Assembly: GCA_040757335.1 (NCBI GenBank)
Contig: JBFLXB010000010.1
Location: 1 to 64,000 of the forward strand
Length of the DNA stretch: 64,000 bases
Direction: 5' to 3'
From: Nitrospirota bacterium
GTDB taxonomy: Bacteria > Nitrospirota > Nitrospiria > 2-01-FULL-66-17
In this document: positions 47,062 through 51,533 of the stretch, piece after piece
Layout: the number at the start of each line of letters is the position of its first letter
How positions within the stretch are numbered: the first letter of the stretch is position 1
Program-made: the position numbers and the translations under genes
The notes under the pieces: generated by a model
What the model was told of the DNA's origin: nothing
What the model saw: only the letters and a program-made list of their open reading frames with translations
Databases searched by the model: none

Positions 47062-48225
47062 TCAGGCGGGCTTTCGCATGGCGTCGATCAGAATTTGCGC
47101 GACCTCGGCCCGGGAAAACTCCGGGGGCGGCATGACGCCGGTGCTCAACATCTCTCGGACCTTGGTACCGGACAGGGCGACGTGATTGGCCGCGTCGTGG
47201 GGACACGTTTTCGCGGACGCCATGCTGCCGCACGTCTTGCAGTAGAACGTGTTGTCGAAAAATAACGGGGTGATGCCCAACTCACCGTCCTTGAACTCGG
47301 CAAAGATATGGTGCGCGTCGAACGAGCCGTAGAAGTTGCCGACGCCGGCGTGATCGCGCCCGACGATAAAGTGCGTACACCCCCAATTTTTCCGCACGAT
47401 GGCGTGAAAGATGGCTTCCCGCGGTCCCGCGTATCGCATCGCGGCCGGGAGCAGGCCGAGCAGGGTCCGGTTCTTGGGGTAATAGTTAGCCAGTAAGGCC
47501 TGGTAACAGCGCATTCGTACGTCTGCCGGAATGTCGTCCGACTTGGTTTCGCCGACCAAGGGATGGATAAAGAGCCCGTCCACGATTTCGAGCGCGCACT
47601 TCTGGATGTACTCGTGCGCGCGGTGAATAGGGTTGCGGGTCTGAAAGCCCACCACGGTCTTCCAGCCTCGTTCGGCGAAGGCCTTTCTGGCGTGGGCGGG
47701 GTCGAGACGATACTCGTGAAAATCCGGGTGAACCTGCCGCCGCAACACATCGACCTTCCCGCCCAGCAGCACCTCGCCGCGTCGGAACAAGTAGTCCACC
47801 CCGGGGTGTTTGCGGTCCTCGGTGCGGTAAATCGCGCGCGCCGCGTGGGCCTTGTCGCGCTGATACCGCTCTTCGAGGTGCAGAATCGCGGCCACCGCTC
47901 CCGACTCGTCCACCAGCGAGAGGTCGCGGCCGTCTCGGAGCGAACTCGCCTGGTCCTGATCAACCGCCAGGATGATGGGGAGACTCCACGGCAAGCCGTT
48001 GGCCAGATGCATGCTGTCGCGCACGCTCTCATAGTCCTTCCGCCCCATAAAGCCCTCGATCGGGCTGTACGCCCCGACCGCGATGAGATCGAGGTCCGAT
48101 CGCTCGCGCGCGTTGAGCGTCACCTTGGGCAACTCGCCGGCGCGACGTTCGAGCTCGGCTCGCTGGTCGGGGGGGACCATTCGGTTGATGAGGACCCCAC
48201 CGTGGGGGATGGACAGCGTGGACAT
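47062..48225 (-). CDS. sat: Sulfate adenylyltransferase (ATP sulfurylase, Sat type)
   Basis: 387 residues from ATG 48225, preceded by AAGGAG. Catalytic QTRNPIHRAHEYIQ (QxRNP and HxxH), VGRDHAGVGNFYG, and a zinc-binding FYCKTCGSMASAKTCPH near the C-terminus, common in Sat of sulfate reducers and archaea. It makes APS from sulfate and ATP. The upstream frame (28 more residues) lies over a terminator and is rejected. It sits downstream of cysH and the sulfite reductase on the same strand. Confidence 0.94.
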   Translation of the reverse strand: MSTLSIPHGGVLINRMVPPDQRAELERRAGELPKVTLNARERSDLDLIAVGAYSPIEGFMGRKDYESVRDSMHLANGLPWSLPIILAVDQDQASSLRDGRDLSLVDESGAVAAILHLEERYQRDKAHAARAIYRTEDRKHPGVDYLFRRGEVLLGGKVDVLRRQVHPDFHEYRLDPAHARKAFAERGWKTVVGFQTRNPIHRAHEYIQKCALEIVDGLFIHPLVGETKSDDIPADVRMRCYQALLANYYPKNRTLLGLLPAAMRYAGPREAIFHAIVRKNWGCTHFIVGRDHAGVGNFYGSFDAHHIFAEFKDGELGITPLFFDNTFYCKTCGSMASAKTCPHDAANHVALSGTKVREMLSTGVMPPPEFSRAEVAQILIDAMRKPA

Positions 48226-48281
48226 GTTCGGCAGCTCCTTTACTTCCAATTGACGAGCGAAATGGATGATGGCCAAAAGAG

Positions 48282-48305
48282 AGGGGCGTTCCAGGGAACG
48301 CCCCT
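48282..48305 (-). terminator. Hairpin terminator between the sulfite reductase gene and sat (minus strand)
   Basis: Arms AGGGGCGTTC and GAACGCCCCT (10 bp) with a 4-base loop. Read on the minus strand it is followed by CTCTTTTGG. It lies 21 bp beyond the sulfite reductase stop and 57 bp before the sat start, so sat may have its own promoter or be attenuated. Confidence 0.65.
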
Positions 48306-48326
48306 TCACGCGGACATCGTTGAATG

Positions 48327-50762
48327 CTATGACGCTTTATTTTCGATCACGAGCTTGTAGTGGTCCCCTTCCTGCTCCATCGAGATGACGCGATACCCGT
48401 CGGATCTCACGCTGCGCGGGACGTTTTCAGCGGGTTCCCCCGCGTCCAGCAGGACCTCGAGGATCTGAAGGGGGTCCATCTCCTCGAGCTGCAGTTTGGT
48501 CTTCACATAATTCATGGGGCACGCCACGCCCAACAGGTTCATCTTAATGACCGGGGCCGCAACCGGTTGAGGCGTCGGCGCGGCCGACACGGCGGGCCCT
48601 GCATTCAGTTGCGGTGTCCCCTGCGCCACTTTGAGCGAGGCGTCGATCTTCGCGAACGCCTGCCGACAGGCGTCGGCGAGCGCCTTGGCGTCGCGGACAA
48701 ACGCTTTCGCGTCATCGAGTGTGAGGTGCGACTTGATCGTCTGGCTCCGCCGCATGGCCGCGTCGTACGCCTCGCGCGGCACCACGCCCTTGTCCACCAT
48801 CCGTTCCGCGAACTCTTTGAGCACGAGTTCGTTGCTGGTCGGCTCGATGGCCTGGGTGACCAACAGGCCCTTGGCCGCGGCCACGATGCCCAGTTCAGCC
48901 CGCATCACGGCGTCCACCGGCTTGTGTTTCTCGATCAGGACGCCGGCGTGGGCGAGTTCGTACTTGGCGTCTTCCAGGTGTTGTTCCACCATGTTGATGA
49001 CGCCGCCCGCGCACTCGCCCGCCCCGGCCTCGTCCAAGGAGAAGGGTTCGTACGCGCCGTAGTCCAGGTACTGGGCGGGCGCCTGGTCGTGGGCGGGAAG
49101 CGTGGTGTAGGGCTCCAGCGCTTTGACGATCGGAGCTTTGCCCACGCGGTCGGTAAACGCGGTGAACGATTCGCCTTGTTGGCGGTGTTCGCGGTAGTAG
49201 GCCAGCAAGGCGTCCACCACTTCCGGGATCCGCTTCGCCGGATACTTACCGGCCAGTTGACCGAACGCCACGCCCTGATCGGTCGACCGGCCGCCTAGGT
49301 GCAATTGATACGCCGGGATCAAGTGGCCTTCGATGCGATGCCCCAGGCCGTGAAAACCGATGGACGCGATGTGGTGCTGGGCGCAGGAGTTGGGGCAGCC
49401 GCTGATCTTGATGTCGACCCCCTTCAGGTCCTCGGCGAACGCGGACCCGCTGTGGGCCAGATGGTCGGTGAGCGCGCTGCCGACTCCCTTCGAGGAGGTG
49501 ATGCCCAATCCGCACGTATCGGCACCGGGGCACGTGATCACGTCACCCACGCGGTCCGCGCCCGGATTGCCGAGCCCCAATGCGGTGAGCGCGTCGTACA
49601 GGGCCGACAAGTCCGCGTCGGCGACCCATCGGAGCAGGAAGTTCTGCTGCACGGTGATGCGGATCGACCCGTGGGCGAATCGCTCCGTGACATCGGCCAG
49701 GCCCCGAAGCTGCGCGGTGGTGAGGTCTCCGATCGGAAGGGTGACGAGCGCAGTGGAATAGCCGGGCTGTTTCTGGGCCTTGACGTTGGTGGCGAGCCAG
49801 GCGTCGAACCTCGGCGTGCGGCTACCGTTCGTGTGTGTTCGCTTGGCGCCGTTGGTCGGAATCGGTTCCGGTGTCAGATCGAACGGTGCGAGCGTGGATG
49901 CTTCGCGACCCTCGCGAATGAACGCGTACTCCTCGGTGTACAGGGCGTAGAATTTCTCAAAGCCGATCTTCTCGATCAGGAACTTGATGCGCGCGAGGCT
50001 TCGGTTCTTGCGGTTTCCGTGTCGGTTGAACACGCGCAACACCGCCTCGCAGCGCGGGCGCAGCTCGTCGGCCGGGACCCATTCCTCAAGCAGGTAGGGC
50101 TTTTTGGGGCTCGGTCCCAGACCCCCGCCCACGGTGAGGCGGAACCCGGTCTCGGTGCGGCCGTTGACCACCCGGTTCACGGCCAGCACCCCGAAGTCGT
50201 GAATCCCGGTCAGGGCGCAATCGCTGGCGCACCCGGAAAACGCGATCTTGAACTTTCGGGGCAAGTTTTCGCACACCGGGTTGCGCAAGAAGTGATACGC
50301 CACGCCCTTGGCGTACGGTGTGACGTCGACCACTTCGCCCTGGCAGACCCCGGCGTAGGGGCAGGCGGTGACGTTGCGAACCGTGTTGCCGCACGCTTCG
50401 CGGGTGGTGAGCCCCACCTCGGCCAACTGCCGCATGATGGCGGCCGTATACTCCAGCTTGACGAAATGGAGCTGGATGTCCTGCCGAGTGGTCAGATGTG
50501 CGATCCCGCGGGAGTAGCGATCGCCGATGTCGGCTACGCGACGAAGCTGGTCCGCGTTCATCCCCCCGAACGGGATCTTGATCCGGACCATCTGCACGCC
50601 GTCTTGCCGTTGGCCGTAGATGCCGTGTTGGAGCCGAAAGCGCCGGAAGACCTCGGGGTGGATCTCGCCGCGCAGGAATCGCTGCGCCTCGCGCTCGTAG
50701 TTGGCGATTTCTTCCTCGATCTCCTGGGGGATGGTTTGAGTGGCGACGGCCGTCGGTGTCAT
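48327..50762 (-). CDS. Sulfite reductase (siroheme) fused to HEPN-like and TusA-like domains
   Basis: 811 residues. Both ferredoxin-like/siroheme halves are present, and each has a full cysteine set: C134-x5-C140, C178-x3-C182 and C411-x5-C417, C456-x3-C460. The second matches the spacing of E. coli CysI (38 residues between pairs). Residues about 590-706 resemble a HEPN bundle (LEDAKYELAHAGVLI, with RSQTIKSH near its end). Residues 740-808 form a TusA-like domain (NLLGVACPMNYVKTKLQL, Cys748). It probably reduces sulfite to sulfide, with the TusA-like cysteine as a possible sulfur acceptor. Operon: cysH, then this gene, then sat. Confidence 0.85.
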   Translation of the reverse strand: MTPTAVATQTIPQEIEEEIANYEREAQRFLRGEIHPEVFRRFRLQHGIYGQRQDGVQMVRIKIPFGGMNADQLRRVADIGDRYSRGIAHLTTRQDIQLHFVKLEYTAAIMRQLAEVGLTTREACGNTVRNVTACPYAGVCQGEVVDVTPYAKGVAYHFLRNPVCENLPRKFKIAFSGCASDCALTGIHDFGVLAVNRVVNGRTETGFRLTVGGGLGPSPKKPYLLEEWVPADELRPRCEAVLRVFNRHGNRKNRSLARIKFLIEKIGFEKFYALYTEEYAFIREGREASTLAPFDLTPEPIPTNGAKRTHTNGSRTPRFDAWLATNVKAQKQPGYSTALVTLPIGDLTTAQLRGLADVTERFAHGSIRITVQQNFLLRWVADADLSALYDALTALGLGNPGADRVGDVITCPGADTCGLGITSSKGVGSALTDHLAHSGSAFAEDLKGVDIKISGCPNSCAQHHIASIGFHGLGHRIEGHLIPAYQLHLGGRSTDQGVAFGQLAGKYPAKRIPEVVDALLAYYREHRQQGESFTAFTDRVGKAPIVKALEPYTTLPAHDQAPAQYLDYGAYEPFSLDEAGAGECAGGVINMVEQHLEDAKYELAHAGVLIEKHKPVDAVMRAELGIVAAAKGLLVTQAIEPTSNELVLKEFAERMVDKGVVPREAYDAAMRRSQTIKSHLTLDDAKAFVRDAKALADACRQAFAKIDASLKVAQGTPQLNAGPAVSAAPTPQPVAAPVIKMNLLGVACPMNYVKTKLQLEEMDPLQILEVLLDAGEPAENVPRSVRSDGYRVISMEQEGDHYKLVIENKAS

Positions 50763-50786: not shown

Positions 50787-51533
50787 TTAGCGCGCGACCT
50801 TCGTGCTCGCATGCGTGTGCAATCCGCATTCTTTGTGCTCAGGGGACTCCCACCACCAGCGTCCAGCCCGGATGTCCTCGCCCGGTTTGATTGCTCGGGT
50901 ACAGGGCGCGCATCCGATGCTGGGGAATCCCTCGTCGTGCAGCTTGTTGTACGGCACCTTGTGGGCCTTGATATAATCCCAGACCTGCGATTCTGACCAG
51001 TGGATCAACGGGTTGATTTTGGCGATCCCGCGGTGCGCGGCGTCGTGTTCGACCATCGGCGTGTCGGATCGGGTCACGGCCTGGGCGCTTCGCAGCCCGG
51101 TGATCCACGCCTGCAAACCGGACAACGCGCGATTTAACGGCTCGACCTTCCGCACCCCGCAGCACTCCTTGCGGTTCTCGATGCTCTGATAGAACAAATT
51201 GACCCCTTTGCTGCGAACCATCTTCTCGACCGCGTCCGCTTGAGGAAAATAGGCCTCGATCGAAATGCCGTAGCGGTCGCGAACCGCGTCCATGACCTCG
51301 TATGTTTCCGAATGCAGGCGGCCCGTATCCAGGCAGAAGACCCGGGGAGAAGGATGCAGCTTGCGCAGCATGTCCACCAAGACGACGTCTTCGGCCCCGA
51401 AGCTGCAGGCCAGCGCCACCTGTCCCTGAAACGTGTCGAGCGCCCACTTGAGCACGGCCTCGGGCGGTTGGGTGGTGAACCGCTGATTGATCGTTTGAAG
51501 TTGTTCCTGGCTGTGGCTGGCAGTGGTCGTCAT
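50787..51533 (-). CDS. cysH: Adenylyl-sulfate (APS) reductase, CysH family
   Basis: 248 residues. Tandem cysteines Cys124-Cys125 (KECCGVRKVEPL) and Cys208/Cys211 (GCAPC) form the 4Fe-4S site that marks bacterial APS reductases rather than PAPS reductases. The catalytic cysteine is Cys236 in ECGLH. It reduces APS to sulfite with thioredoxin. ATG 51533 follows GAGGAGCTGA. First gene of the sulfate-assimilation run; 24 bases separate it from the sulfite reductase gene. Confidence 0.93.
   Translation of the reverse strand: MTTTASHSQEQLQTINQRFTTQPPEAVLKWALDTFQGQVALACSFGAEDVVLVDMLRKLHPSPRVFCLDTGRLHSETYEVMDAVRDRYGISIEAYFPQADAVEKMVRSKGVNLFYQSIENRKECCGVRKVEPLNRALSGLQAWITGLRSAQAVTRSDTPMVEHDAAHRGIAKINPLIHWSESQVWDYIKAHKVPYNKLHDEGFPSIGCAPCTRAIKPGEDIRAGRWWWESPEHKECGLHTHASTKVAR

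Follow-up and report, generated by a model that had tools for sequence, protein, structure and literature searches.

Textbook sulfate assimilation frees sulfide, which is toxic and volatile. In the DsrAB-DsrC system, the C-terminal arm of DsrC inserts between DsrA and DsrB, with its terminal cysteine at the siroheme (PMC3397948), and DsrC accepts a sulfur intermediate (PMC10229431). For assimilatory sulfite reductases (aSirs), the paper describing the Fsr structure states that the cluster motif has been lost in one half of the protein (PMC10229431), and zero-valent sulfur has been reported as the direct product of four assimilatory sulfite reductases (PMC13188885). In the CysO pathway of cysteine synthesis, the sulfur source was stated to be unknown in 2011 (PMC3227635). 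Here we describe a siroheme sulfite reductase (SiR) in which the reductase core is followed, within one chain, by an invariant cysteine, a HEPN-fold domain and a TusA domain.

A fusion gene between cysH and sat

The window (the whole stretch of 64,000 nucleotides analysed here) carries on its minus strand a sir-hepn-tusA fusion gene (48327..50762), an open frame of 811 aa with an ATG start. Upstream lies cysH, encoding an APS/PAPS reductase of 248 aa (50787..51533, minus strand; 309.6 bits for NCBIfam PRK02090 and 280.2 bits for TIGR02055, both above cut-off), and downstream lies sat, encoding sulfate adenylyltransferase (47062..48309, minus strand; 566.8 bits for PRK04149, above cut-off). Because cysH and sat adjoin the fusion gene on the same strand, in the order cysH-sir-sat, we place it in a sulfate-assimilation operon, for which the spacing suggests co-transcription; given these neighbours, the predicted function of the fusion protein is sulfite reduction in sulfate assimilation.

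The surroundings of the gene vary among relatives. An Rrf2-family-like regulator occurs near sir in 17 of 28 HEPN-TusA loci (e.g., L035 5120-5575 and L063 5065-5514); none was seen next to the window's operon. In several Nitrospirota, an AprB/AprA-like pair, named by eye from sequence, adjoins sir and sat (L052 7840-9987; L053 4165-6441; L039 7907-10154); no cysH was found near sir in the Nitrospirota loci with this pair, where it possibly acts as an APS reductase serving assimilation. The window's genome also encodes a separate 962-aa NirB-like protein, likewise named by eye, with pyridine-nucleotide oxidoreductase and nitrite/sulfite reductase halves (L002 10-2898; G000 C48), which is likely a nitrite reductase.

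The reductase core and its two sets of cluster cysteines

The core (residues 20-552; 49107..50705, minus strand) consists of two NIR_SIR_ferr + NIR_SIR halves (Pfam E = 2.7e-38 and 6.2e-56) and matches NirA, NiR and SiR structures in the PDB. The cysteines of the C-terminal half that would bind the [4Fe-4S]-siroheme centre (C411, C417, C456 and C460; 49383..49532, minus strand) show no variation across the 106 rows of the tree alignment; nor do R93, R129, K170 and K172, which we take to be the siroheme-pocket Arg and Lys residues equivalent to those of E. coli. The fusion protein scores far below all cut-offs of the curated NCBIfam equivalogs of SiR, NiR and YedF (e.g., 295 of 523 bits for NirA, 107 of 757 for CysI and 130 of 732 for sir). 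Judged by its sequence, it is an assimilatory-type siroheme sulfite reductase, with ferredoxin probably the electron donor.

The loss of the N-half cluster motif stated for aSirs is not seen in the fusion protein, which keeps C134, C140, C178 and C182 (residues 134-182; 50217..50363, minus strand). All four cysteines of this CX5C...CX3C pattern are present in 58 of 61 Nitrospirota relatives, 43 of 47 HEPN-type proteins from other phyla, 6 of 18 tail-type proteins (those that end shortly after the core; see below), and 0 of 4 outgroup SiRs. The pattern suggests that the fusion protein may bind a second cluster in its N-terminal half.

An invariant cysteine in the tail of the core

The linker that joins the reductase core to the HEPN domain contains the pattern G-x-G-E-C-A-G-G, GAGECAGG in the window's protein (residues 580-587; 49002..49025, minus strand), with Cys584 encoded at 49011-49013. 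This cysteine is present in 61/61 Nitrospirota and in 83/83 relatives from across phyla, compared to 0/4 outgroup SiRs. The 83 wider relatives comprise the best 80 from a scan of the genomes of 84,980 species, which used patterns from other parts of the reductase and not GECA, plus three plasmid loci; the 80 are those nearest to a Thermus query and form an uneven sample. In 18 of the relatives, from Thermus, Omnitrophota, Methylomirabilota, Acidobacteriota, Chloroflexota, Myxococcota and other taxa, the chain stops at ...GxGECA[A/V/S/T/I]*, that is, one residue after GECA; these tail-type proteins share ~40-50% identity in the core. The profile matches to the solved structures of NirA, plant NiR/SiR and E. 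coli SiRHP end ahead of this tail, and the AlphaFold2 model has a pLDDT of only about 55-70 around Cys584. As far as sequence comparison goes, the GECA cysteine is both more general and more striking than the domain fusion that was first noted.

The HEPN-fold domain

The region after the tail (residues about 588-712; 48627..49001, minus strand) is assigned to the HEPN fold by a family profile and by Foldseek with an AlphaFold2 model, and in relatives by Pfam. When this region of the fusion protein was scanned alone, it scored 21.9 bits against PF05168 (residues 592-652), compared to a cut-off of 22, and 29 of 40 relatives had PF05168 matches with E ≤ 0.1, the lowest being 9.8e-8. A profile of the family matched the solved HEPN protein AF0298 (2HSB) along the entire domain (E = 9.3e-8); in the same search, 2HSB was outranked by the designed helical repeat 6EGC, which covered half of the profile. 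The AlphaFold2 model of the region has a pLDDT of 88, and its top four Foldseek matches are the HEPN structures 2hsb, 1ufb, 1wol and 1o3u, with a probability of 1.00, target TM scores of 0.68-0.73 and modest E-values (0.008-0.03). Profile and model evidence thus indicates a HEPN fold for the family, which is marginal for the window's single sequence; the HEPN-like helical region that had been proposed after the core is borne out to this extent.

The same does not hold for the R-x6-H string RSQTIKSH (residues 672-679; 48726..48749, minus strand), which the preliminary description had read as part of the HEPN pattern. The string is present and not conserved: among the 61 Nitrospirota, V or L prevails in alignment column 672 and D or E in column 679, and the only protein with R-x6-H at the aligned positions (1/61) is the window's own. 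Moreover, 52% of shuffles of the HEPN region contain R-x4-6-H, and no Arg or His is invariant in the domain among the 61 Nitrospirota. We therefore discarded the idea that R-x6-H forms a HEPN active site, because its aligned frequency is 1/61 and such motifs arise at chance level. These observations also weigh against the reading of the HEPN domain as a catalytically active RNase that couples sulfur assimilation to cleavage of RNA or tRNA; the HEPN fold and the presence of the string in the window's copy speak for it, and we consider it extremely improbable. One SiR-HEPN relative (L112 5890-8823, 977 aa) carries ~220 extra C-terminal residues without a Pfam match.

The TusA domain

The chain ends with a TusA domain (residues 740-807; 48342..48545, minus strand), which matches PF01206 with E = 1.6e-17 in the whole protein and 2.3e-19 when the tail is searched alone (63.5 bits, compared to a gathering score of 28.6). 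The proposed TusA-like tail with Cys748 is certain: this residue (48519-48521) is conserved in 55/55 fused relatives, and 55 of the 61 Nitrospirota relatives have it in the chain. The motif of the TusA family is CPxP; that of the fused domain is CPxN in the relatives and CPMN in the window's protein. In one family (f5), the reductase ends after the HEPN domain, and a separate tusA gene follows directly downstream, on the same strand, after 8-50 bp. The window's genome also encodes, at another place, a stand-alone TusA with CPYN (G000 C4:91847-92053; L003 1360-1749), a paralogue that is 49% identical to the fused domain.

The TusA domain has been lost in one Nitrospirota assembly (L058 5325-7490), where sat starts one base past the stop codon of sir, and no separate tusA was found beside tail-type or HEPN-only SiRs within the flanks examined. 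As TusA is missing from L058, and is not found near the reductase in most phyla that have the GECA tail, the reductase does not appear to depend on it.

Distribution of the architectures

The search for the reductase covered 296 genomes of the phylum; about 120 of them contain it, mostly with full-length coverage. The survey of the co-occurrence of SiR, HEPN and TusA shows that the fusion is conserved, in 55/61 Nitrospirota and in Nitrospinota, and the SiR-HEPN-TusA type was found only in these two phyla. Among the members of the clade are Nitrospira and Nitrospina, which are known as nitrite-oxidising genera. Three architectures occur among the 83 GECA relatives: 18 with the tail only, 47 with a HEPN-like extension, a call that outside Bacteroidota rests on the Nitrospirota profile, as Pfam gives no HEPN match in those phyla, and the HEPN-TusA type. 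In many phyla, SiRs of this clade carry a HEPN-type extension and no TusA. A search of plasmids returned close relatives only from Bacteroidota (HEPN, no TusA) and Thermus (tail only). In a quick tree (LG+G4), which has long branches and is approximate, the GECA-type reductases are separate from the outgroup, and the TusA type lies near tail-type Methylomirabilota.

In the open-access literature, we found no description of the fusion or of the tail (HEPN with sulfite reductase or TusA; TusA with assimilatory SiR), and the fusion is apparently an undescribed conserved variant of assimilatory sulfite reductase. The preliminary description is partly confirmed in what it observed, the profile searches having returned HEPN and TusA and neither an ordinary helical linker nor a different ferredoxin-like fold, and partly supported in how it interpreted this; it missed Cys584 of GECA, the additional cluster cysteines of the N-terminal half, and the HEPN extensions without TusA in many phyla.

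A candidate acceptor cluster

The window's genome contains a cluster thiS-cysM-moeB-(thrC)-moaD-NIL-moeB-JAB (L165 6253-11324; G000 C9), which includes the only cysK/M of this genome above cut-off. By analogy, the cluster looks like the protein-thiocarboxylate (CysO) pathway of cysteine synthesis. Pfam finds only ThiF, and no rhodanese, in the first MoeB of the cluster; the second MoeB is of similar length. In the tail-type loci L068-L070, cysM and a JAB gene lie ≤6 kb from sir. However, the cysM-JAB pair occurs in 11 of 20 Nitrospirota without this SiR, compared to 20 of 30 with it, and given that the pair is nearly as frequent in the control set, we discarded its clustering as a specific pointer to the acceptor. 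Because the pair is common without this SiR, a CysO-type acceptor for the fusion protein is kept only as a suggestion.

A proposed sulfur relay and its alternatives

The reading that we slightly favour is that of an assimilatory, probably ferredoxin-dependent siroheme SiR with a sulfur relay within the chain. The siroheme would reduce the sulfite produced by CysH; Cys584, on the GECA segment after the core, would take the sulfur off the siroheme as a persulfide; the persulfide sulfur would move to Cys748 of the tethered TusA; and TusA would hand it to a biosynthetic acceptor, so that free sulfide would not be the chief product. The HEPN domain may be a helical scaffold without catalytic function, or may serve dimerisation, and in this way hold the tail and TusA in position, and a plausible acceptor would be a protein thiocarboxylate of the ThiF/MoeB-CysO type that feeds CysM and Mec for cysteine. 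The path from the siroheme over Cys584 to Cys748 is proposed because of the analogy with the DsrC arm, and capture of the sulfur directly as a persulfide, as suggested in the preliminary description, is in our judgement the best hypothesis. The report of zero-valent sulfur as a direct SiR product counts for the relay by analogy, yet concerns four other SiRs, and the CPxN motif of the fused TusA, instead of CPxP, counts against it. Also in its favour are the gene order cysH-sir-sat, the intact active-site and cluster residues of the core, the conservation of Cys584 and Cys748, the separate tusA of family f5 and the CysO-type cluster of the window's genome; the low pLDDT around Cys584, the relatives without TusA and the frequency of the cysM-JAB pair in Nitrospirota that lack this SiR also speak against it.

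It is also possible, if somewhat doubtful, that the protein is an ordinary sulfide-releasing assimilatory SiR. The GECA cysteine would then have a structural role or seal the active-site channel, and HEPN would mediate oligomerisation; TusA would be a domain for docking or regulation, or would only collect sulfane sulfur derived from the released sulfide for the thiolation of tRNA or cofactors. Such an enzyme would be consistent with the canonical core, with the presence of GECA and HEPN without TusA in many phyla, with the TusA-less L058, and with the statement that C-terminal extensions of SiRs strengthen dimerisation and bind partners (PMC10229431). A structural role, however, poorly explains why the 18 tail-type relatives all have this cysteine at their free C-terminus, or why TusA is repeatedly tied to the SiR, fused or adjacent. 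We regard as improbable an operation in the oxidative direction, from TusA persulfide over the siroheme to sulfite or APS, as in sulfur oxidation by reverse Dsr: cysH or cysDN neighbours in the window and in many relatives point to assimilation, as does the Rrf2-type regulator that adjoins in 17/28 loci, and members of Nitrospira and Nitrospina are known nitrite oxidisers, even though AprBA and sat lie beside the gene in some Nitrospirota loci. In sulfur oxidisers, TusA supplies sulfur oxidation via DsrEFH (PMC10839748), which is in line with the oxidative direction.

The proposed relay may extend beyond the window's protein. We tentatively envisage a broad bacterial clade of assimilatory SiRs that have a DsrC-like cysteine tail within the chain and transfer sulfur as protein persulfide, most HEPN-bearing members retaining the cluster motifs of both halves; the fused TusA would complete the relay in Nitrospirota and Nitrospinota, from sulfite to a carrier-bound thiocarboxylate to cysteine without free sulfide. 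If true, this would be a protein-bound route of assimilation instead of the release of free sulfide; it would link to the recent claim of zero-valent sulfur as a direct product of assimilatory SiRs (PMC13188885), and would bear on where CysO-dependent cysteine synthesis obtains its sulfur (PMC3227635) and on the evolution of the DsrAB-DsrC relay.

Comparison with known systems

With the CysO-CysM-MoeZ-Mec pathway of M. tuberculosis, the window's genome shares ThiS/MoaD-like carriers, CysM, MoeB and a JAB peptidase, all encoded in a single cluster, whereas its first MoeB has no rhodanese domain, and the tie to the SiR is only suggested. The HEPN domain resembles HEPN proteins of the AF0298, TM0613 and TTHA1913 type in its helical-bundle fold and by profile similarity, but differs in having no conserved R-x4-6-H and in standing in cis with a metabolic enzyme. 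With the TusA family (E. coli TusA, YedF), the C-terminal domain shares PF01206, a cysteine at the active-site position and a fold match to TusA structures, whereas its motif is CPxN and not CPxP, and it is fused to, or encoded beside, a SiR. The likeness to DsrAB and DsrC lies in the cysteine of a C-terminal arm that is proposed to accept sulfur from the siroheme and in cluster motifs in both halves; unlike that system, the fusion protein is a single chain, with the tail within the reductase and in a context of assimilation, its DsrC-like action is only proposed, and no DsrC domain was matched by Pfam in it. Finally, the two-half fold, the cluster cysteines of the C-terminal half and the siroheme-pocket Arg and Lys residues are common to the fusion protein and to the assimilatory SiR/NirA enzymes (E. 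coli CysI, maize SiR and M. tuberculosis NirA). Compared to these enzymes, it scores far below the NCBIfam cut-offs, is ~40 residues longer before the extra domains, a stretch that ends in GECA, keeps the cluster cysteines of the N-terminal half, and adds HEPN and TusA.
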